From Cylindrotheca closterium (Eukaryota; Bacillariophyta; Bacillariophyceae; Bacillariales; Bacillariaceae), in the NCBI GenBank assembly GCA_933822405.4, contig CAKOGP040001858.1, positions 124,001-188,000 on the forward strand: DNA of 64,000 nt, written 5' to 3'. Position numbers and translations under genes: made by a program. The stretch's first letter is position 1. Every line of letters begins with the position of its first letter. A model generated the notes under the pieces. It made no database searches and had not been told where the DNA came from. It worked only from the letters and a program-made list of their open reading frames with translations. Below are positions 7,123 to 53,121 of the stretch, piece by piece.

Positions 7123-8613
7123 CTACTGCATGCGTCGGGACGAACCAATAGGAGTGTCCAAGAACTGCAATACCTTTGGAATTACAAAGCCAGCTCCACA
7201 GATAACTCGGTAACCGTTTCGATCCAAAGCATTATCATTGTTCCATTTAGATTTCAGTGTTCGTTTCCACAAGGCCTTCTCCAATATGGATGTGCTTTCC
7301 ACAGCTTCATACCGTTTCCAGGTGGACCATAATGTCTCCCTGAAAGCAGTCATTCTACGTTCCTTGTCATGATCTTCCGCTGGTAGTAGTAGTACTACTA
7401 GAAGATTGTCAATGAGGGAAATCATTCTACTTCGCCAAACGGTCGCACCCCAGCGCTCCAATCGATCCACCATCCATGCTTGAATCGTCATTTGAAATAG
7501 TATCATCTTGTTGTCATCTGAATTCCAAAAGTTACTCAATAATAGGTAGTCCACCGCCAGTTTGCCATTGGCATCCTTCCAGTCTAGAATGATACCACTG
7601 CATGGCAACTTGTCTAGAAGGACTTGAAGCAGATCTCGCCTTGGACTAATGGTGGAAAAGAGAATGTGAAATGGTGTCATTCCAAAAGCATCCACAAGTG
7701 ATGATGCTTCCATAGCACCTTGGTCTTTGCCGATCAAAAGTCGGAGCTCCTGAGCAGTAGTGGTTGTTGAGGAATGGTCGTAACAACACTTGTGAAGTGG
7801 GTAGTCATCGAACCGGGATATTAATCCTGCGATAACACTATCCATATCTTCACCAAAGCGATCTTGTAATAGTGGAGGACCAGGTGACGCGTTATACCTT
7901 GCCATGCTGACTTTGGTGGACCCTCGTGGGAGCACAAGGTTTGCAAGAGATCTGCAGAATTGGAAGGATGTTTCTTCAATCTCGATTGGTTGCTTCGAAT
8001 CCAGGGGTACAATGATTGTAACCAAATCGGTGCATTCCATAAATGAAGCGTGACCAATACGCTCCAATGACCTTGGTAGGCTCACTGTTTGCAAGGAGGA
8101 ACAAGCTTCGAACGCACACATGGGAATCTCCTTGATGGCCGTTGCAGATAGATCAACTTCTGCCAAGACTTGGCAGTGGGCAAAGACCCGTATGCCAATC
8201 ATGTTCACCGACGAGGGGATCTTCTTCACTTGTTGCAATTTAGGGCAATTCAAAAAGGCGGCGTGACCAATTGTCTTTAGCTGATTATGGGCGGCGGACG
8301 ACGACGACGACGACGACGACGAGGAACATTCCAATTCTACGTTCTCCAGGAGGGAACAATTCTGTCATGCCTCATCCCCAATGGATTCTACCGTGCAAAC
8401 AATATTGATTTCCAACAAGCTTTTGCAATATCCAAAGGCACCATCACAAATCTTGATTGATCCTTCCGGCAGAGTTACTTGCCGCAAAAGCTCACGAGAG
8501 TAGCACAATTGCGGAGGTACAACTGGAATGCCTGGATTGAAAGTCAGCTCTCGAACGCTGGTTGGAACTATTTCTCCTTCGTCACCTTGGAATTGGTAGA
8601 CGTTCATCCGCAT
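7123..8613 (-). pseudogene. LRR_5 (BspA-type) plus ankyrin-like protein, broken by one in-frame stop
   Basis: Read on the minus strand from ATG 8613, the frame begins with MRMNVYQFQGDEGE, the usual opening of diatom BspA-like LRR proteins. LRR_5 repeats follow with the pattern (I/A)G..AF..C..L..V.LP. An in-frame TGA lies at 8365-8367, inside an LRR where GDEAFQNC would be expected (alanine and glutamine flank the stop). The same frame then stays open to 7123 for about 410 residues: five further LRR units, then an ankyrin-like segment (FGMTPFHILF, DANGKLAVDYLL) and a conserved C-terminal block. These proteins normally mediate protein binding; no catalytic role is known. The downstream part alone (ATG 8334) could still be expressed, so calling it dead is an inference. 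It is tandem with a second broken paralog at 8898-10337. Confidence 0.75.
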
Positions 8614-8897: not shown

Positions 8898-10337
8898 TTA
8901 GGCAGAAGAACCCATTGGAATGTCCAAGAATTGCACTATCCTTGGAAGTATAACATCTGATCCACAGACAACTCGGCAACTGTCTCGATCCAGAGCTTGT
9001 CTCTTGGTAGTATCATGATTACTCCAGCCAGACGTTAGTTTTCCTTTCCACAGAGTCATCTCCAATATCGATGTGGCTTCCATTGCTTCGTATCGTGCAA
9101 AAGCAGCATATGCTTCTGTGCACAAAGGTGCCGTTTGATCCATTTCAGTTTCGGCAAGTATAGCTTGCATTCTACTGTTCATGCCTTTTTTTCAGGATGC
9201 AATCCCCCAACGATCAAATGGATCCAACATCCACTTTTGCAGTGTCATTTGCAATAGTATCTTGTTTTCCTCAGTCCAGTTGGCCATCAGGTAGTCCAGC
9301 GGTCGTTTGTCATTGGCGTCCTTCAAGTCTAGAATACAGCATGGCAGCTTTTCCAGAAGGACTTGGAGCAAGTCTTGTCTTGGGTCAATAGTCGAAGAAA
9401 AGAAGACGTGAAGTGGTGTCATTCCAAAGTCATCTACCAGGGATGATGCTTCCATAGCACCTTGGTCTTCGATCAAAAGTAACAGGAGCTCCTGAGCAGT
9501 GGTCGAGGAATGGTCGTAACAACGCTTGTGAAGTGGAAAGTCGTCGAACCGGGACATTAATCCTGCGATAATGCTTTCCGAATCTTTACCAAAGCGATCT
9601 TCAAAAAGTGTGCAACCTCCAAAAGGGTAGAAAGCGTCTGGATCGAAAATGGACCCTTTTGGAATGACAAGGTTTGCAAGAGAATCGCAGTGCACAAATG
9701 ATGAATCGCCAATATGGATCGGCTGTGAATGAAGAAGGGGCATTGTCACTGTCACTGCCACTGTCACTGTCACCAAAGATCCGCATTCATAGAATGCCAG
9801 CTGAGAAATACGCTCCAATGTCTTTGGTAAACTCACAGTTTGTAGGGCGAAACATTCTGGGAAACAATTCATCTCTGTAATGATGGCCGTTGCAGATAAA
9901 TCGGCTACTATCATGGCACTACAGGACTCAAAGGCATTTTCCCCAATTATGTTCACCGACGAAGGAATCCTGATTCGTTGCAGAGAGCCGCATGATGCAA
10001 AGGCGTATTTTCCAATTGTCCGTAGCTGATGGGGAGAAGATGACAATGACTGTTCAAACTCTACGTTCGTCAGCTGATGGCAGTGCTGAAATGCAAATCT
10101 ACCAATATGCTCCACAGTGGTACAAATTTTGATTTCCAACAAGTTTTCGCAATAATGAAAAGCACTATCACAAATCTTGGTTAGTCCTTTGGGCAGAGTA
10201 GTAACCCGTATGAACTCATATTAATAGCACAGTTGCTCCGGCACAACCTGAATGCCTGGATTGAAAGTCAATATTTCGACACTTTCTGGCACTTCTTCTC
10301 CTTCTTCACCTCGGAATCGGTACTCTGTTACCTCCAT
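8898..10337 (-). pseudogene. Second LRR_5 plus ankyrin-like paralog, broken by two in-frame stops
   Basis: Same family and orientation as the neighbour at 7123-8613. The minus-strand frame from ATG 10337 opens with MEVTEYRFRGEEGE and continues to PEQLCY, then meets TAA at 10221-10223, where the paralog has a serine codon. The frame stays open through five LRR_5 units and the ankyrin-like segment (FGMTPLHVFF, DANDKRPLDYL) until TGA at 9192-9194. It then continues in the same frame to 8898 with the C-terminal block (ARYEAMEATSILE, IVQFLDIPMGSS). About 10-15 residues seem to be missing around the second stop compared with the paralog. The stops lie at different positions from the neighbour's, so the copies decayed separately. 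Confidence 0.82.
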
Positions 10338-19176: not shown

Positions 19177-19398
19177 TTACTGTCTTTGGGATTCTTCCGT
19201 TCCATTGTCGTCAAAAATATCTTCCTCTAGGATGGCAAGCGCGGCATCGATGATGGCAAGAAGTCTCCTCCTTTCCGACTCTTCACCATTTCCTTCTGAT
19301 GTTGGAATATTCGAAGGCAAACGAAAGGGAGGAGGCGGAGGACTCATACCAGAGCTGATACTTGTCAATGGAATCGAATGACTTTGAAAGCAGGGCAT
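19177..19398 (-). CDS. Small acidic protein related to the 47-53 kb array family
   Basis: A 73-aa open frame from ATG 19398. The first 35 residues are S/P rich; the second half has RRRLLAIIDAALAILEEDIFDD, the same helix motif as ILDQALAVLETSDF in the tandem family at 48183-53121. It lacks the NNCQ N-terminus of that family. Being short, it could be a truncated member or an independent small gene. Function unknown. Confidence 0.5.
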   Translation of the reverse strand: MPCFQSHSIPLTSISSGMSPPPPPFRLPSNIPTSEGNGEESERRRLLAIIDAALAILEEDIFDDNGTEESQRQ

Positions 19399-22379: not shown

Positions 22380-23585
22380 TCAGCGGCATTTCGCCTTTGA
22401 CAAACGACCTTCGGCCACCTTGCGTCTCTTGATTTCCCGTCGAAGGTGATCCCTTTCTTCCAGCATGGCGGTCCTATGAGATTCTCGGATAGTTGCATTG
22501 CACTCCTCCAGTTCCATGTTCGTCTGCAAAAGTAAGTCCCTTTCCTTTTTAGATTGTTGCAGCTGATATCTCAACGCCAAATTTGCTTTCCTCTCTTGAG
22601 CAAGTTGGTGAAGTAGCTCCTTTCTGGTGAGTCCTTCCAATAATTTAAAAGGGTTACCAAGAACTGCAGTTCCCTTGTTCTTGGCCACTTTGGTTGCATT
22701 GGTCTGGTCCATTGTCTTTCGCTTTTTGCTTGACCCGGATGCCGCTTCTTGGCGCTCGTCCGTTTCGTGTCCTCCTCGAACTTGCCCAAAGCCTCCAGTG
22801 TTGTAACGAGGAGCTTTGCTGCCACCCTTCTTTGTAGTTCCAGAGGTCATTCGCGGTGTTTTGCGTGTCTCGCATACTAAATCATTAGACGACATTTCCT
22901 CATCGTCATCGCCATCGCTATCAATACTGGCTCCATCAAATCCAAGACTCTTGAGCTCAAGAAATCGCTCCTTTGTCAACCGCGATTCATTTCCCTTCTG
23001 GTATTTCTTGTAGTGATTTCGAGTGTTTCTGGCCCAGGTAGAAAGAAGTTGATTGCTTGGGAATTTTTGGGGAACTTTGCAATGGCCATGAAGTTCCTTA
23101 AAGGCTACCAGCTCTTGTATTAGAGTCTTCCAAGCAGCCTTCTGGGCGTCCCACACAAATCCAAGATTCTCAAGCTCACCAACGCGCTCTTGTGTCATCC
23201 AGCAGGAAGTCGTACCCTTCTTCCAAAGCGTGTATTCCGAACGTTGCTTGTGTACCCAGAACCCTAAGGTCTTGTTCTCTGAATAATATTGAGGCACATT
23301 GCAATGTCCGTGTTCCCTTTTGAATTGGATAAGTTCTTGGATTCGGAGCTTCCAATTTCTCTCCCTCCTGCCACCCCACTCAAATCCAATTCTTTCAAGC
23401 TTCGTCACCAATTCTTGTGTAATACAAGATGCTTTCTCTCCAGTCTTCCATTTCTTGTATTCCCGCCTTTGATGTGAGAGCCAATTTCCTAGTGCAGTCT
23501 TGCACGGTACATGGCAATGGCCATGTTCCTTTTGGAACTCAACAAGTTCGTTGATTCGTTTTTCTTGTTTCACTGAGAAAACCAT
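22380..23585 (-). CDS. Helicase-associated (HA) domain protein with C-terminal coiled coil, copy 1
   Basis: A 401-aa protein with three HA domains (PF03457-type) at about 7-67, 75-138 and 143-206. Each has the pattern LxxFxxxHGHCxVP...LGxWxxxQRxxYKKW...LTxERxxxLxxLGFxW; the third diverges (WARNTRNHYKKY). Then comes an acidic and basic linker, and a coiled coil from about 315 (LTRKELLHQLAQERKANLAL onward) to the end. HA domains are probably nucleic-acid binding; there is no helicase domain. The ATG at 23585 is preferred over 23654 because the paralog at 39097-40683 starts at the same place and its homologous upstream sequence is not in frame. The copies point away from each other and share promoter sequence. 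Confidence 0.82.
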   Translation of the reverse strand: MVFSVKQEKRINELVEFQKEHGHCHVPCKTALGNWLSHQRREYKKWKTGEKASCITQELVTKLERIGFEWGGRRERNWKLRIQELIQFKREHGHCNVPQYYSENKTLGFWVHKQRSEYTLWKKGTTSCWMTQERVGELENLGFVWDAQKAAWKTLIQELVAFKELHGHCKVPQKFPSNQLLSTWARNTRNHYKKYQKGNESRLTKERFLELKSLGFDGASIDSDGDDDEEMSSNDLVCETRKTPRMTSGTTKKGGSKAPRYNTGGFGQVRGGHETDERQEAASGSSKKRKTMDQTNATKVAKNKGTAVLGNPFKLLEGLTRKELLHQLAQERKANLALRYQLQQSKKERDLLLQTNMELEECNATIRESHRTAMLEERDHLRREIKRRKVAEGRLSKAKCR

Positions 23586-39096: not shown

Positions 39097-40683
39097 ATGG
39101 TTTTCTCATTCAAACAATTGGAACGAATCAACGAACTTGTTGAGTTCCAAAAGGAACATGGCCATTGCAATGTACCGTGCAAGACTGCACTAGGAAATTG
39201 GCTCTCACATCAAAAGCAGGACTACAAGAAATGGAAGGCTGGAGAGAAATCTAGTATGTCACAAGAGTTGGTGACGAAGCTTGAAAGAATTGGATTTGAG
39301 TGGGGTGGCATTATGAAGACAGCGAATGAGAGAGCTTGGAATCTCCGAATCCAAGAACTGCAAGCCTTCAAGAAGCTTACTGGACATTGCAATGTACCAA
39401 TGCATTATTCAGAAAACAAAGTCCTAGGCAGATGGGTCAGCAGACAACGTCGCGACTACAAGAAATGGAAGAATAAGGCAGACGGCAAGTGCCCGATGAC
39501 ACAAGAGCGTTCTGTTGAACTCGATAATCTTGGATTTGTGTGGTCTGCCCAGAAGGCACTTTGGAAAACTCGACTCCTTGAGTTGAAAGACTTTAAGGAG
39601 TTTCATGGGCATTGCAATGTACCAATTTATTTTCCAGCCAACAGGACATTGGGGCTTTGGGTTCAAAAGCAGAGAAAAGAATACATGAAACGGAAGAACA
39701 AGGGAGAGGATAAGTCCTTGATGACGCAAGAGCGAATCATTGAACTCGAGAAGCTTGGATTTTTGTGGGTCGCCAAAAACAAGCGACCTCTATACCCCAT
39801 CAAATCCAATACGGTGGAAAACGCAATGGGGTTCCCTTCTCAACCGCAGCACCTCTCTGCAGATGAGGATGAAGATGAGCACCCCTCTGCAGATGAGGAT
39901 AAAGGTGATAATGACGAATCGTCGCCTGAAGAGCCAGTGTCTGTAACACGTCAAACACGGCGAATGGCTTCTAGAAAGAAGGGCAGCAGAAAACCTCCGC
40001 CTTGTAGCACTGGGGCCTTGGGGCAAGATGAAGGGGGGCACCAGGAGGACGAGCGTCAAGAAGCGGCATCCAGGTCAAGCAAAAAGCGAAAGGCAAGGGA
40101 TGCGACGAATGCAAAGAAGATGGCCCCTCGAGAATCAAAAAGAAGAAGACTACCACTGCGCAGGTCTCATGACAATGGCACACAAGGCGCTAGTATCATG
40201 TCGTCGAAGAGCTCATCCGTTTGCAACGATTCCAAGGATGAGAGGAGTCCAAGTGGTGGTGAAGATCTTGACAATGACACTGAGCTCGAATGGGAGGCTG
40301 GCAGTGAGGATGATGAAACCAAAATTGACGGTTCTTCCGAAGAGTCAACCGTCCAAGGGAGACAAACGCACATTGGCATGGATTCAAAGCACACTTACAA
40401 GGACAAGGGGACTGTAGATGTTGCTGGTAACACTGGTAACTTGGAAGGACTCACCAGAGAGGAGCTACTCAACAAAATCGCTCAAGAGTGGAAAGCAAAG
40501 TTGGCGTTGAGATCTCAGCTGCAACAATCCCAAAAGGAGAGAGACCTACTTGCGCACATGAACATGGAACTGCAGGAATGTAATGCAACTATCCGAGAAT
40601 CCCATAGGACCGCCATGCGAGAAGAAAGGGATCACCTTCGACAGGAAATCAAGAGACGCAAGGTGGCCAAAGGCGAAATATAG
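39097..40683 (+). CDS. Helicase-associated (HA) domain protein with C-terminal coiled coil, copy 2
   Basis: A 528-aa paralog of the protein at 22380-23585. It has three HA domains at about 8-68, 76-140 and 146-208, all with the HGHCNVP core and LGxWVxxQRxxYxKxK. A longer linker follows, with an acidic repeat (SADEDEDEHPSADEDKG) and basic nuclear-type stretches (RESKRRRLPLRR). The C-terminal coiled coil (EGLTREELLNKIAQEWKAKL onward) is nearly identical to the first copy, down to LQECNATIRESHRTAM. The ATG at 39097 follows the conserved leader. Probably nuclear and nucleic-acid binding by analogy with HA domains; no helicase domain. Head-to-head with copy 1, about 15 kb apart. Confidence 0.85.
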   Translation: MVFSFKQLERINELVEFQKEHGHCNVPCKTALGNWLSHQKQDYKKWKAGEKSSMSQELVTKLERIGFEWGGIMKTANERAWNLRIQELQAFKKLTGHCNVPMHYSENKVLGRWVSRQRRDYKKWKNKADGKCPMTQERSVELDNLGFVWSAQKALWKTRLLELKDFKEFHGHCNVPIYFPANRTLGLWVQKQRKEYMKRKNKGEDKSLMTQERIIELEKLGFLWVAKNKRPLYPIKSNTVENAMGFPSQPQHLSADEDEDEHPSADEDKGDNDESSPEEPVSVTRQTRRMASRKKGSRKPPPCSTGALGQDEGGHQEDERQEAASRSSKKRKARDATNAKKMAPRESKRRRLPLRRSHDNGTQGASIMSSKSSSVCNDSKDERSPSGGEDLDNDTELEWEAGSEDDETKIDGSSEESTVQGRQTHIGMDSKHTYKDKGTVDVAGNTGNLEGLTREELLNKIAQEWKAKLALRSQLQQSQKERDLLAHMNMELQECNATIRESHRTAMREERDHLRQEIKRRKVAKGEI

Positions 40684-47354: not shown

Positions 47355-47465
47355 CTGGCTGATCCCATTGGAACAGAAAACTTGTTTACGACGAGAATGC
47401 GAAGGAACGAAAACCGGTAAGCTTTACTGAATACCAACAAGGCCTTCCGTCGCTACGGGTCATTG

Positions 47466-47677
47466 CCCGTTGAACACGTCGCGGTTCCTCATGACCATTC
47501 TTTGTGAGTCTGTTGATCCGCCCCATTGGAACAGAGAACTTTTTTACGATGCGAATGCGAAGGAACCAATAGTGAGTCTACCGGTACGGGTACAGGCCGG
47601 TACAAGGCAAGCTCGACCAAGTTCTTGCTGTTCTTGAGCCGGGAGACTTCTTGGTGGATGCAGGAGTAATGCAGTAA
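47466..47677 (+). pseudogene. Deleted array copy: upstream block fused to gene end
   Basis: The upstream block (to about 47570) is followed after 40 bases directly by the C-terminal coding end (LDQVLAVLEPGDFLVDAG, then VMQ and TAA at 47675-47677). Everything from the leader through the first 100 codons is missing, so this is a copy with an internal deletion. Confidence 0.8.
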
Positions 47678-48182
47678 CCAAAATATCGAAAGAGTCACTA
47701 CTGTAGTTCTGCGTTGCACATCCTAATCAAATGCAGGGAAAAGCAAAGTAAGATTCTTGTAACGACAGGCAGGAGCCAGATTACAGTAACAATGCAGGTC
47801 CTTTGTTCTTCTTGCACCAATTTGAAGTATCAAGATACTACAGACGTCCGTGAGTTAGGTTATTTGACTCGATCCCGAGCAGAAGTTATGATAGTACCAG
47901 TTGGTGGAAGAATCTCATTATTTCGAGAGGAACATACCCTTTGAACACGTCGCGGTTGCACATGACCAATCTCCGTGAACTTCTTGTTGGTCCCATTGGA
48001 ACAGAAACCTTTTTACGACGCGAATGCGAAGGAACGAATAGGGAATACGGGCTTTATAGGCGTCACTACAACGTACTGGTATCGGCTAGAACAAGAAAAG
48101 CCGTATGGTGAACTGATAGAAATGAGCGGGTCTTGGGATGAACACATATTTTCATCAGTTTCACAATTTCTAATTTGCAACA

Positions 48183-48581
48183 ATGAATTCTTCGACAACT
48201 GGAAACAACTGCCAAGTGGCGAACGTTTCTGCCCCTGACAGCAACGAAGGTCCAAATGATGATTCCATCGCAGTGGTCTATCAGAGGAGGATGCCAAACC
48301 CAAACCAAGTGCTCATAACGCTGCTTGATGCACTTAATGACAACATTGCCGGCAATGTCAGTCGAAGCGCAAGCATGAATTTATTGGGTTCATGCTACAC
48401 ACTACCCGAGGAATCAGGTCTTCTCGATTTGCACTCAGAGGAAGAACAACAGGTAAACCTAAATTCCATACTCGACCAAATTCTTGCTGTTCTTGAGACC
48501 GGAGACTTCTTGGAAACAGGAGAGTCCGAATACTATCCGTCTGGGCCCGGTTCCCTCACCACCACTGAACTAATGCAGTAA
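48183..48581 (+). CDS. Array gene 1: small acidic protein of unknown family
   Basis: A 132-aa protein, not recognised. It starts MNSSTTGNNCQV; NNCQ is shared with the other array members. The middle is polar and acidic (DDSIAV, LPEESG, HSEEEQ). The C-terminal third has the helix SILDQILAVLETGDFLETG, then a short polar end (SEYYPSGPGSLTTTELMQ). No signal peptide or membrane segment, so cytosolic or nuclear is likely. Promoter block at 47936-48045 and TTTCACAATTTCT just before the ATG. Closest relative is the next gene at 49047. Confidence 0.72.
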   Translation: MNSSTTGNNCQVANVSAPDSNEGPNDDSIAVVYQRRMPNPNQVLITLLDALNDNIAGNVSRSASMNLLGSCYTLPEESGLLDLHSEEEQQVNLNSILDQILAVLETGDFLETGESEYYPSGPGSLTTTELMQ

Positions 48582-49046
48582 ACCATAGTATCAAATATCA
48601 AAAGAGTCTTGTAACGACAGGAAGTAGATTCTAGTGACAATAATGTAGATCCTTTCTTCTTCTTGCAAACATATGAAATATCTTGATACTACAGACGTCC
48701 GTTGAGTCATTCAATTTGACTCTATATCCCGGGAAGAAGTTGGTACTTGGTACTTGGTAGAATCTCATTATTTCGAGAAGGAACATACCCGTTGACCACA
48801 CGTCGCGGTTGGTCGTGACCAATCTTCGTGAATCTTCTTGGAACAGAAAACTTTTTACGACCTGAATGCGAAGGAACGAATAGGGAACCTACCGTACACG
48901 TACAGGTGTACGGGTACAGGCCGTTCCAATATAAGACAGGCCGTATGAACTGACATAATTGAGCGCGCATTGGGATATCAACACGCATTTTCAGCATTTT
49001 CACAATTTCTGAAACTCATTTTTTTAAACCTCGTTTTTCGGCAACA

Positions 49047-49442
49047 ATGAACTCTTCTCCAACTGGAAACAACTGTCAAGTGGAGAACGTTTCTGCGCCT
49101 AACAGATATATCGAGGAGGGCAACGCAAGTCCAATTGACGATTCCATCGCAGTGCTGGTTGATCAGAGGAGGGTGCCGAGCCCCAATCCTACGGTGCTTG
49201 ATGACAATATTGCCGACAATGCCAGTCGAGGCTTCCCGGGTCCATACTATCTACTACCCGAAGAATCAGGTCCTCTCCACTTTCACTCAAGGGAACAAGC
49301 ACAACAGGAAAACCTAATTACCATACTCGACCAAGTTCTTGCTGTTCTTGAGACGGATGATTTCTTGGTGGATGCGGGAGAATCCGAATACTATCCATCT
49401 GAGCCCGGTTCGTCTCTCACTACCAATGAGCCAATGCAGTAA
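49047..49442 (+). CDS. Array gene 2: small acidic protein of unknown family
   Basis: A 131-aa protein, clearly a tandem paralog of the gene at 48183: MNSSPTGNNCQVENVSAP opening, shared DDSIAV, LPEESG and HSRE segments, helix TILDQVLAVLETDDFLVDAG and ESEYYPSEPGS end. The middle differs mainly by small indels, which keep the frame, a sign of selection on the protein. Upstream block at 48788-48886. Function unknown. Confidence 0.72.
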   Translation: MNSSPTGNNCQVENVSAPNRYIEEGNASPIDDSIAVLVDQRRVPSPNPTVLDDNIADNASRGFPGPYYLLPEESGPLHFHSREQAQQENLITILDQVLAVLETDDFLVDAGESEYYPSEPGSSLTTNEPMQ

Positions 49443-50155
49443 CAACCAAAGTATAAATAGACTCGCCAATGTAGCAATGCATTGCAAATGCTAATCGAAT
49501 ACATGGAAGAACAAAGTAACATTTCTTGCAACGACAGAAGCCAGATTACAACAACAATGCAGCTCCTCCTTTCTTGCACCAATATTAAATATTTTAATGC
49601 TACAGACGTCAGTTAGGTTATTTGACTGGATCACGAGCAGAAGTTTGTGGTAGTTATTTGTAGAATCACATTATTTCGAGAAGGAACAACATACCGTTGA
49701 CCGTTGTCGCGGTTGCTCATGACCAATCTTCGTGAATCTTCTTGAATCTTAAAATAATTGCTCAATCTGTGTTCCTTTAGAAAAAACCGACCACGTTCCT
49801 CACTTGGCAAGAGACATGCTTTAGCAATTTGGATGCCGGTTGGGTTCGTGCTTTTTGCGGATGTGATCAGTTGGATTTTCAAATTACTTATTGGTCCTTG
49901 ATATCTTCCAAATCGGCTCCTTTTAGTTCAGCTGGGTGGTGTTTGGTATGTTCCTGCTCCTTCCATTCTGGGTATTCGTGAGACGTTCCTCACTTGACAG
50001 CAAGTATGCTATTAAATAATTTGGAAGCCGATCAGATCTTGGAATACCGGGATCAAAAGTTGCGGGTTCAGGCGGATACAAAATTCCCGCACATGAGAGG
50101 CTGCAGTGAGTTTGTGATTCGTTTTCCGACAATCATAAAACATTCTCCAACCGCA

Positions 50156-50604
50156 ATGATATATTCTACACATGGAAACAACTGCCAAATGAACACTTCT
50201 GCGCTTAACACACCATACCAACTTGAGAGAGAAAAGAACAAAACCAATCTTCTTTTATACTAGCTAGTGGTCCAAATGACGATGCCGCCGTTGTAGGGGA
50301 TACGCTATTTGGGGGGTCTGAATACAATGCCCCCCAGAGGGTTGGTTTCTATTATTTGGGGCAACATTACCGATAAGGATGTCACTCAACGAGCAAGCAT
50401 GGCCACCAACCTGGGTCCATGCAATACAGTATGAGGAGAAATTGCGTCCTCCTCTCGTCCACTTTCGCTCAAAGGTAGAACAACAGAAAACTGCTTTTCA
50501 TTCTCGACCAAGAAGCGGTTGCTGTTATTGAGGCTGTTCATTTCTTGGAAGCAGAAGCACCCGAATTGCCACCTCGTGGTTCTTTCACTACTCAGCTACT
50601 GTAG
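50156..50604 (+). pseudogene. Degenerate array copy
   Basis: ATG 50156 opens MIYSTHGNNCQM, matching the NNCQ start, but meets a stop after 36 codons. Later pieces are homologous to other members: GPNDDAAVVGD (about 50270-50310), HFRSKVEQQ (about 50460) and, in another frame, ILDQEAVAVIEAVHFLEAEAPE up to TAG 50602. Several frameshifts separate them, so it is a pseudogene. Confidence 0.75.
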
Positions 50605-51578
50605 AGAGCAGCGCAGTACTGTAAAGCATCAAATGAGGAGCTACTGTCAGCTTCTGTCGGACAGTGCTTGCTCGCATGACGGACATAAGACGGACAACTG
50701 CACTATTCGCGGTTATGCCTTGTAGGAACTACCGTATATGGGGCGTGCATTGAAACATGGGCAATTGCATAAAGTCTATAAGACTGTGCGTCATGATGCA
50801 GGCTTGGCCTAGAGAGATTCCAAAAGCACGGAGTAGAAACGTAGCAGGAGTTTGGGAGCCTTCCAGCAGCAGCTTGATCAAAGAAAAGTAAGATTGAAGA
50901 CAACTTCCCTGACCACAATGGAGTATCTTACCGCAGATAGATTGATCCTATACAAAGAAGACCTAGTGATATATATTGAAGTAGGATGCTGAGCAGAATT
51001 TTTAATTTGAAGGAATGAGTGCCTCGCAGACCTGTTGCTGAGGTCACACTTGCTGCCTATCTTCTTGGAATGACCGAGTGCCTCGCAGACCTGTTGCTGA
51101 GGTCACACTTGCTTCCTATCTTCCTAGCAGAATTTTTAATTTGAAGGAATGAATGAATCGCAGATCTGTTGCTGAGGTCACACTTGCTGTCTATCTTCTT
51201 GAAACATCTCCTTGAATTCCTTGATACTTCGACATTCCGAAATGGAATAAGTTCCGGGGGAGAAACTGCCAAAGTTCCGTACTGGAACTTCGCAAGAAAC
51301 ATTTGGATCCCGAGCAGATTTTCGATTGCCAGCGATCACAATCAGAATTTTGATACCAATTAATTGTGTGTTTTCAAAATACTTATTGGATCGTTCTATG
51401 ACGTCAACACTGATTAGGAAAACTTTTATCCTTCAAATCGTAAAGGCGTTCGAGCCACCTTCGAGGAATCTAGGTTTTTCAATCCTTACTACCGTGTTTC
51501 TTCGAAGTGTCAATTGTTTCGAACTGTCAGCACAAAGTTTTCTCCCACAATTCGTAAAACATATTTTTCACCACAAAG
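50605..51578. other. Diverged inter-unit region of the array
   Basis: Contains the triple 50-bp repeat described separately. Other parts recall array flanks only weakly. No gene called. Confidence 0.45.
51016..51200. repeat. Three copies of a roughly 50-bp repeat
   Basis: Copies near 51016-51066, 51075-51125 and 51151-51200 share CGCAGACCTGTTGCTGAGG and TCACACTTGCTGCCTATCTT, with one to three changes each. A GCAGAATTTTTAATTTGAAGG element occurs before the first (50993) and third (51127) copies. Confidence 0.85.
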
Positions 51579-51962
51579 ATGAATCCTTCTACAACTGAAA
51601 GGAACTGCCAAGTGACCGCTTCCGTTTTCATCGGCGATGATGGCAACACAATGAATGATACTGTCTCAGCAGACCAGATGAGCCCGAATCCAATGCCAAG
51701 CCTGCTTTCCATTCTGAATGGCGACATCATCAGCCATAATGATGCCATTCCAAGAGCAACAAACAGTACGACATGCCCATATCCACTGCCCGAAGGACAG
51801 TGTCCTCTCCCTTTTCACTCAGAAGAGGAACACAAGAAACACCTAGTTTCCATTCTCGACCAAGCTCTTGCAGTTCTCGAGACTTCCGACTTTATGGATA
51901 CAGGCGCATCCGATTTTCCATCTGGTTCCTCTACTTTCACTTTTGAACTAGCACGGCAGTAA
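51579..51962 (+). CDS. Array gene 3: small acidic protein of unknown family
   Basis: A 127-aa protein. Opening MNPSTTERNCQVTAS is close to the others (NCQ kept). Then PLPEGQ, HSEEEHKKHL, and the C-terminal helix SILDQALAVLETSDFMDTG with a polar end. More diverged from genes 1 and 2 in the middle. No signal peptide or membrane segment. Function unknown. Confidence 0.7.
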   Translation: MNPSTTERNCQVTASVFIGDDGNTMNDTVSADQMSPNPMPSLLSILNGDIISHNDAIPRATNSTTCPYPLPEGQCPLPFHSEEEHKKHLVSILDQALAVLETSDFMDTGASDFPSGSSTFTFELARQ

Positions 51963-52653
51963 TGTACTCTATCAAACGAGGAGCTTTGCAATGCACAGCC
52001 AGACAGTCTGATCATATAGGAAAAACTTTAATATTGTAGACATAGCTTCATACCGTACTCTATTGTTCAAGCCACAATTCACAAACCCACTATCTACCAT
52101 CTACCGTCTGGACCCGTCTATCAGCAAATTCGATTAATTTTTTCGTGCACCAAGAGAAAGTGAAAAACATCTTGATATTACGGTACCACTGCCATGTTGT
52201 TTGATCGGATACCGATCAGAAGTTGTACTCTTAACCTATTTGTGAAGGAATCACACCTCCGTTGACCGCGTCGCGCTTATATCCTGCAGAAAATACTTCT
52301 GGAAATCTTCTGGAATCTTCTTGATACTTTGTCTTTTTGCTGTTCGTTTGGGGGAAACTGACAACTGACCATGTTCGTCATTGGGTCATGCGAACAAATA
52401 GGATGTCGAGCAGAATTTCGAACATCAAAACATTTAATCAATGGGACCCTCACTTGCTCGTGGTTTTATCAATATTCTTCTTCGCCAAGGCGTTAGAGCC
52501 CCACATTCGCCCCACAAAAGTTTTTTTCACTGAGACCCGACGAAAGATGGTCAATCGTCTGAAATGGTCATAAAGCTTAACGTCAGGTTTCGGAATTGTC
52601 ACTGTGTGTCTCTTGTCAGTGCACATTTCATCAAATTCTACTTCTTTGCAACG
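51963..52653. other. Inter-unit region upstream of array gene 4
   Basis: Contains a weak match to the upstream block at 52256-52330 (GTTGACCGCGTCGCG, GGAATCTTCTTGATACTT). No other gene. Confidence 0.5.
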
Positions 52654-53121
52654 ATGATGACTCCTTCTATAAGTGGAAACAACTGTCAAATGATCATGGA
52701 CGCTTCCGGTGCGTCAAACAGGAGATACATGATGGGAGACGGGGATGGTAACGAGATCAATCTTCGCGATGGTCCAAATGATGATGCCGCCCTGGAAGTG
52801 GATCCGATGAGTTCCAACAATGATCCAATGGCCAGACTGTTTCTTTCTATTCTCAATGCTGACAACACCATTACAAGTACGAACCACTATCATGATCATG
52901 CCATTCCACCAAGAGCAAACATGAGCTTGCCTGGTCCACTAGTGCTCGAAGATCTTTGTCCTCTTCACTTTCATTCAAAGCAAGAACAAAAGAACCATCT
53001 ACTCTCCATTCTCGACGAAGCAATTGCTGTTGTCGAGGAGGAAGACTGCTTCTTGGTGCCTGGTGGTGCTCCATCATCTGCTCATTCGCCCACTACTACT
53101 TCTGACGAACCAAAGCAGTAA
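52654..53121 (+). CDS. Array gene 4: small acidic protein of unknown family
   Basis: A 155-aa protein (ATG 52654, or 52657 for a start that aligns better with the relatives). It opens MMTPSISGNNCQM and has GPNDDAA, PLHFHSKQEQKNHL, then the helix SILDEAIAVVEEEDCFLVPG and a polar end (TTTSDEPKQ). The N-terminal half is longer than in the other members by about 25 residues, with an N/D-rich insert. The frame is open further upstream but without family sequence. Function unknown. Confidence 0.7.
   Translation: MMTPSISGNNCQMIMDASGASNRRYMMGDGDGNEINLRDGPNDDAALEVDPMSSNNDPMARLFLSILNADNTITSTNHYHDHAIPPRANMSLPGPLVLEDLCPLHFHSKQEQKNHLLSILDEAIAVVEEEDCFLVPGGAPSSAHSPTTTSDEPKQ

Follow-up and report, generated by a model that had tools for sequence, protein, structure and literature searches.

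The tandem array of short genes at positions 47355-53121 of the analysed window, a 64,000-nucleotide stretch of Cylindrotheca closterium DNA, belongs, as one branch, to a larger family that appears to be undescribed and consists of short, mostly unstructured proteins. The family, the array included, has 28 members. They are dispersed over nine contigs, in at least five clusters and as single genes, and their ends are conserved. Numerous diatom genes lack a known function, and those that are short are often overlooked or mis-modelled. A shared helix motif together with a glutamine-stop end unites 28 such scattered genes into one family.

All the intact and broken copies of the array lie on the forward strand. 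Gene 1 (48183..48581) encodes 132 residues ending in Met-Gln-stop, as does gene 2 (49047..49442, 131 residues), which is its nearest relative (dS 0.30). Gene 3 (51579..51962) encodes 127 residues and ends in Arg-Gln-stop, and gene 4 (52657..53121) encodes 154 residues and ends in Lys-Gln-stop. The start of gene 4 at 52657 is the ATG that aligns with the other copies. An extra ATG immediately upstream, at 52654, gives an open reading frame of 155 residues (52654-53121), and a longer frame beginning at 52564 is absent from the other copies. The database model of gene 4 (P0004, 141 residues) is shorter and lacks the conserved start. Of the first broken copy (47612..47680), the helix end and the beginning of the tail are all that remains, and the second (50154..~50642) has retained both its helix region and its GNNCQ start, separated by changes that break the frame. 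In the repeat unit, the alignable flank around the coding sequence amounts to more than 400 bp. Upstream (5') flank pieces of the unit occupy 47355-47411 and 47466-47596 on the forward strand (47355..47596 in all), and the 5' flank of unit 2 (47931..48182, forward strand) aligns with that of unit 3 at 73.8%. The interval that separates broken copy 2 from gene 3 contains a dispersed short repeat.

The alignment of the four array proteins has 27 invariant columns, among them M1, S4, N9 C10 Q11, H84 S85, the last Gln and a large part of the helix. The middle region varies strongly in length. The first-pass annotation had described four intact genes and at least two broken copies with a common GNNCQ start and a C-terminal helix, and the reading frames, their coordinates, the two remnants and the invariant columns (n=4) confirm this description. 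The duplication had also been called recent, which is true of the 48183/49047 pair but not of the other five pairs (dS 0.78-1.11). The view of the genes as a single local tandem array proved too narrow, as the array is only one of the clusters of a dispersed family.

The array is connected to the rest of the family through a distant single member in the same window, the 19180 gene (19177..19398, reverse strand), which encodes 73 residues ending in Arg-Gln-stop and whose database model, P0128, ends differently. Compared with the whole genome, the 19180 protein matches contigs C517 (E 0.0016) and C361 (E 0.026) and the window array (E 0.028). In profile comparisons, the array matches 19180 with a probability of 93.8 and the C517 set matches 19180 with a probability of 86.6. 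The direct match between the array and C517 is weak (59.9); the kinship link goes via 19180. The other clusters and single genes are at C517, C212, C79, C134, C19, C371 and C157, and the members are 73-155 residues long.

A DNA pattern of the nine-residue core has 22 matches in 47.6 Mb, versus two for the reversed pattern; 15 of the 22 are already-known members, three are new members and four were rejected. The pattern is thus present in 18 of the 28 genes, and the ten others were found by sequence. The least certain member, C157:220242 (E 0.31), was included on the strength of its motif and its Arg-Gln end. The end looks damaged or altered in two C79 copies. Motif matches on C51, C90 (two) and C135 lie in long or unrelated frames and were rejected, as were a genome match on C193 and candidates on C113, C425, C535, C529, C190 and at C212:172543, most of which are proline runs. 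A weak C361 fragment (L055:6575, E 0.02) was left out of the count.

The loose form of the core motif, [IV][IL]xx[AVI][LI]x[IVLM][LIVM], was written after the members had been collected and is present in all 28, versus only 12 for the strict form, I[IL]D[EQA][AVI][LI]x[IV]L. The core begins 23-44 residues ahead of the protein end. In AlphaFold models of one window gene (gene 3) and one C517 gene, the motif lies in a helix (residues 82-102 in gene 3) that has a pLDDT of about 85, and confidence is lower elsewhere; the protein end is not helical in either model. These two models suggest that the members are mostly disordered, with one predicted helix of about 20 residues. The amphipathicity of the helix does not exceed that of shuffles of its own residues, as 10.6% to 52% of the shuffles equal it in the nine helices tested.

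The C-terminal Gln, which played no part in finding the members, is present in 21 of the 28, versus 4 of 57 long open reading frames of the genome (p 2e-10, where the members are not independent of each other and the long frames are unverified as genes). Its codon is CAG or CAA, followed by TAA, TAG or TGA. As both the glutamine codon and the stop codon vary, the Gln is kept at the level of the protein. The residue ahead of it is Arg in ten members, Pro in three, and Met, Lys, Ser and Gln in two each (n=21). Of the seven members that do not end in Gln, four belong to the main C517 array, which has six copies.

The array proteins are under mild purifying selection, to which dN/dS lends modest support. 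The coding sequences of the 48183/49047 pair are 83% conserved, versus 73-74% for the flanks. A script counted eight gaps in their coding interval, of which seven are multiples of three and the eighth, of 2 nt, is at the stop codon. If the latter is assigned to the flank, frame-keeping gaps amount to 7/7 in the coding sequence versus 6/14 in the flanks (one-sided Fisher p 0.015); if it is assigned to the coding sequence, they amount to 7/8 versus 6/13 (p 0.074). The earlier claim that the indels in the middle preserve the frame is thus upheld within the coding sequence of this pair, at a significance that depends on the placement of the one gap. The true frame of the array genes contains no stops, whereas each of the five remaining frames has 4-17 per pair.

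The dN/dS estimate for the array varies with the type of alignment, being 0.44-0.62 in codon alignments and 0.62-1.0, significant in none of the six pairs, in nucleotide alignments built without knowledge of the protein. In independent pairs, neither the core alone (dN/dS 0.62, 2dlnL 1.6) nor the N-terminus alone (0.52, 2dlnL 0.8) is significantly below 1. The proposal of protein-level selection is sustained by the coding sequence being better conserved than its flanks, by the frame-keeping indels, by the open true frame and by the codon-based ratios, but not by the nucleotide-based ratios. Elsewhere in the family, the C134 member compared with seven related copies has an omega of 0.19-0.33 (2dlnL 9.2-19.0). 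Among the 21 pairs formed by six C517 copies and C19, none reaches a 2dlnL of 3.84; 18 of them have an omega of 0.48-0.91, and three pairs of near-identical copies have an omega above 1.

The proteins fit no known family in the databases searched. In Pfam and NCBIfam, the best score of the four window proteins is 12.5 bits (on one protein) against a cut-off of 27, and none of the four has a transposase or reverse transcriptase domain. A wider scan of 15 proteins (14 of the 28 members and the metagenome protein P0130) gave no NCBIfam match and three Pfam families with one member each: PRIMA1 (3.7e-6), PF22812 (6.5e-4) and PF05308 (0.088). The PRIMA1 match, to the C361 member, was attributed to a proline run. 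The array profile has no match in the PDB at E <=1 and, against 5.8 billion proteins, it finds the four window proteins alone among 7792 candidates. The core-motif profile finds eight proteins at E <=10 among 101 candidates, all of them weak (best E 0.25); seven are labelled C. closterium and the eighth, P0130, is from an ENA metagenome contig, is 62 residues long, closely resembles a C517 member and ends in Pro-Gln. Both protein searches require shared exact five-residue words and may therefore miss distant relatives in other diatoms. The database does contain related diatom proteins, as the neighbouring gene 53806, used as a positive control, matches 357 of 2450 candidate proteins, counting its own, at E <=0.001, the top non-self match being a Bacillariaceae MAG protein with 82% identity. 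The viral_contigs and genome_contigs sets gave 54 and 31 pattern stretches, none of which was confirmed. No long hydrophobic run was seen by eye in the conserved frames of the array proteins, and no description of the family was found in a literature search limited to open-licence PMC articles. The first-pass annotation had called the family unrecognised and had suggested a lineage-specific function; within the databases searched, the lack of a known family and the restriction to one lineage are both supported.

The most likely explanation, in which confidence nevertheless falls somewhat short of even, is that of a coding family with fast turnover and repeated local arrays, whose members would be disordered intracellular adaptors. 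The helix would fold onto a partner protein, acting as a docking peptide, and the variable linker would set spacing and specificity. The C-terminal Gln would be read separately by a second factor, such as turnover or terminal-recognition machinery. A comparable known system is the ubiquitin ligase TRIM7, which is described as binding a Helix-PhiQ C-degron, a C-terminal helix terminating in a hydrophobic residue and Gln (PMC9394474). Like the TRIM7 substrates described there, the family has a terminal Gln and a helix in its C-terminal part; unlike them, its predicted helix does not reach the end, and a clearly hydrophobic residue (Met) precedes the Gln in only 2 of 21 members. A bolder and rather improbable extension is that these short disordered proteins, with one docking helix and a C-terminal Gln tag, might form a diatom-specific regulatory system, an undescribed stramenopile analogue of end-rule signalling, in which tandem duplication would have produced arrays each serving a different partner or signal. 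If the terminal Gln were indeed a recognition signal, it would indicate a protein-end code in stramenopiles. If it is not, the genes are still a well-marked, lineage-restricted and tandem-expanded family, and the diatom that carries them has a public genome and public RNA-seq data.

Other explanations have to be weighed against that of docking adaptors. The family may once have been functional and now be relaxed, turned over by unequal crossing-over, with remaining reading frames of little present function. This has perhaps one chance in several of being correct, and it accounts for the two broken copies in the array, the truncated or altered C79 copies, the length variation of the middle region, a dN/dS of 0.44-0.62 or higher, and the lack of significant constraint among the C517 copies. 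Decay is harder to reconcile with four frames that have stayed open at a dS of 0.3-1.1, when stops abound in every other frame, with in-frame indels in multiples of three, with the recurrence of the helix motif and the terminal Gln across branches, or with the low omega of the C134 member against its seven relatives. The least probable alternative is that the array is a non-coding or transposon-derived tandem repeat and that its reading frames are fortuitous. The long alignable flank belongs to the unit, and a dispersed short repeat is present, as such an origin would have it; yet the coding sequence with its 3' flank and the 5' part of the unit match this locus alone (best candidates scored), conservation of the coding sequence exceeds that of the flank, and the proteins are related, in their amino acids, to the products of short genes elsewhere on different contigs.

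It is also conceivable, but very unlikely, that the reading frames are first exons, in which CAG-TAA would serve as the 5' splice site (CA|GTAA) and splicing would remove the stop. All four array genes terminate in CAGTAA, and in P0128, an 81-residue model of the 19180 gene, the Gln-stop is replaced in a manner compatible with splicing at CA|GTAAGA. Against this, 5 of the 14 Gln-ended members checked use CAA, so that there is no GT at this position, and others stop with TAG or TGA. Retention of Gln-stop through these codon changes makes a protein end the better explanation. Similarly doubtful is a role in sex or strain recognition, by analogy with lineage-restricted mating-type proteins such as MRP3, described as a mating-type determinant of Pseudo-nitzschia multistriata (PMC6261938). 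Lineage restriction, rapid divergence and local expansion would suit such a role, and MRP3 is likewise described as a diatom protein of narrow distribution with no recognised domain (PMC6261938). The comparison is by description, and MRP3 is reported as one sex-determining gene (PMC6261938), whereas 28 members on nine contigs are unlike a single mating-type locus.

A parallel for the arrangement of the genes is given by the tandem families reported for Seminavis robusta (PMC7335047). Known domains characterise the families named there, which include LRR proteins, heat-shock factors, lectins and rhodopsins (PMC7335047), whereas the C. closterium proteins are very short and have no recognised domain. 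Like the C. closterium arrays, they are local and largely species-specific, and in both diatoms the tandem copies are less constrained than the dispersed ones (PMC7335047).

The following observations indicate that the tandem array at 47355-53121 belongs to a protein family that is real, restricted to its lineage, apparently undescribed and wider than first reported. Its four intact open reading frames (genes 1-4, starting at 48183, 49047, 51579 and 52654) and two broken copies are present where the first-pass annotation placed them. The repeat unit around genes 1 and 2 is about 860 bp long and its flanks are alignable too, while genes 3 and 4 show greater divergence. Genes 1 and 2 are identical at 305/369 positions of coding DNA versus 312/425 of the flanks jointly (172/233 and 140/192; Fisher p 0.002). 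The claim that indels keep the frame holds for all seven indels within the reading frame between these two genes, which are multiples of three; an eighth gap, of 2 nt, lies at the stop codon. When this gap is counted as flank, multiples of three make up 7/7 coding and 6/14 flanking gaps (p 0.015); when it is counted as coding, the figures are 7/8 and 6/13 (p 0.074). The database model of gene 4 (52654-53121), P0004, is shorter, with 141 residues, and begins 3' of the conserved start motif. Between the second broken copy and gene 3 lies a short dispersed repeat (50655-50868), which matches contigs C224, C38 (twice), C146 and C109 of the same genome at about 69-77% identity. A repeat of about 79 nt, present three times at 50992-51204 (80% and 92% identical to the reference copy), apparently lies outside the gene family.

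We conclude from the following tests that a genuine protein is encoded and that purifying selection on it is mild. With a protein-guided codon alignment, dN/dS for the six array pairs is 0.62, 0.56, 0.44, 0.52, 0.61 and 0.44, and 2dlnL against 1 is, in the same order, 2.4, 4.8, 10.4, 6.0, 3.7 and 10.4. Nucleotide alignments made blind to the protein sequence give 0.63, 1.00, 0.74, 0.77, 0.64 and 0.62, with none of the six pairs significant (largest 2dlnL 3.18). In these alignments the true frame contains no stops, while each of the remaining five frames has 4-17 per pair. By region, two independent array pairs give 0.52 for the N-terminus (2dlnL 0.8), 0.51 for the middle (5.4), 0.62 for the helix core (1.6) and 0.29 for the tail (5.8); both ends pooled give 0.49 (7.2). 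Among six copies on contig C517 and the C19 copy, omega is 0.48-0.91 in 18 of 21 pairs and exceeds 1 in three near-identical pairs, and significance is reached in none. The more distant C134 copy gives 0.19-0.33 against these seven, significant in every comparison.

The first-pass annotation described a local array; the cluster is there, but the family extends to nine contigs and five clusters. When the window was searched permissively, a similar helix turned up on the opposite strand, 29 kb upstream of the array, in a 73-residue reading frame (19180-19398, minus strand; 19177-19398 with the stop) ending Arg-Gln-stop. Other members were reached by whole-genome search with this 19180 protein and then with its matches as queries. 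Because the searches of the 47.6 Mb assembly (572 contigs) in which the window lies scored only the best candidates, the count is a lower bound: at least 28 members, with four in the array, one at 19180, seven on C517, five on C212, four on C79, two each on C361 and C157, and one each on C134, C19 and C371. At C212:266250-267950 two copies, whose proteins are 95% alike, form an inverted pair facing each other; the other copies of the cluster that contains them are on one strand.

Because the core is short, single links of kinship are weak. In the whole-genome search the 19180 protein matches other branches with E values of 0.0016 to 0.028. Profile-profile probabilities are 93.8 for the array and 19180, 86.6 for the C517 set and 19180, and 59.9 for the array and the C517 set. 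As a DNA pattern the core has 22 genome matches versus 2 for the reversed pattern; 15 of the 22 were already known when the pattern was designed, and the other seven comprise three members and four non-members. AlphaFold places a helix on the motif in one window gene, whose input alignment included C517 members, and in one C517 gene, whose alignment was free of window genes.

The protein end is shared as well. A terminal Gln is found in 21/28 members versus 4/57 long reading frames, with a p of 2e-10 that is overstated since the members are related and the long frames are not confirmed genes. This residue played no part in the searches, except that it helped to admit one weak match, C157:220242. 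As its codon (CAG or CAA) and the following stop (TAA, TAG or TGA) both vary, it is a feature of the protein. The residue before it is Arg in 10/21; the seven members with other ends are C517_208420, C517_206551, C517_204661, C517_209563, C361_23837, C79_550981 and C79_552019. In the database the 19180 gene is modelled as P0128, with another end in place of the conserved Gln-stop; judged by the family pattern, this suggests that the model is wrong, its end being possibly a mis-annotated intron.

In the midpoint-rooted tree, whose deep forks are not resolved, arrays mostly group with themselves (support 95/93 for the window array, 98/97 for C361). The C19 copy falls within the C517 group and C157_464029 within the C79 group, where inner forks are weakly supported. 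Copies may have dispersed first and multiplied locally later; alternatively, the arrays may have been homogenised.

A profile of the array found no relatives outside the array in the protein database. A core profile found, besides C. closterium, one unlabelled metagenome protein, P0130; the adjoining gene 53806, used as a control, yielded 357 proteins, itself counted. Other diatoms probably lack the family, but relatives may have been missed because both profile searches require identical words in common and many short genes go unannotated.

The two AlphaFold models have mean pLDDT of 58 and 64, with the helix near 85 and the rest mostly of low confidence; the C517 model has one more helix, short and of low confidence. 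Neither visual inspection nor Pfam revealed a catalytic motif. The simplest role for a short, disordered protein in which a single helix and the end are conserved would be that of an adaptor or inhibitor docking through the helix. Specificity might then be varied by the changeable middle region and by tandem duplication, and the terminal Gln suggests that the end may be recognised. That the helix is no more amphipathic than its shuffled versions counts against a simple docking face. The known precedent for recognition of such an end is TRIM7, which captures a C-terminal helix ending in hydrophobic-Gln (PMC9394474). The Cylindrotheca closterium family does not fit that pattern, and the precedent therefore transfers as a general idea only.

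Elsewhere in the window, two similar long reading frames, at 22380-23585 (minus strand) and 39097-40683 (plus strand), carry repeated units around FQKEHGHCNVP; they appear to be paralogues with helicase-associated repeats. Two adjoining similar frames, at 7123-8202 and 9192-9914 (both minus strand), appear to encode proteins of the leucine-rich-repeat type.
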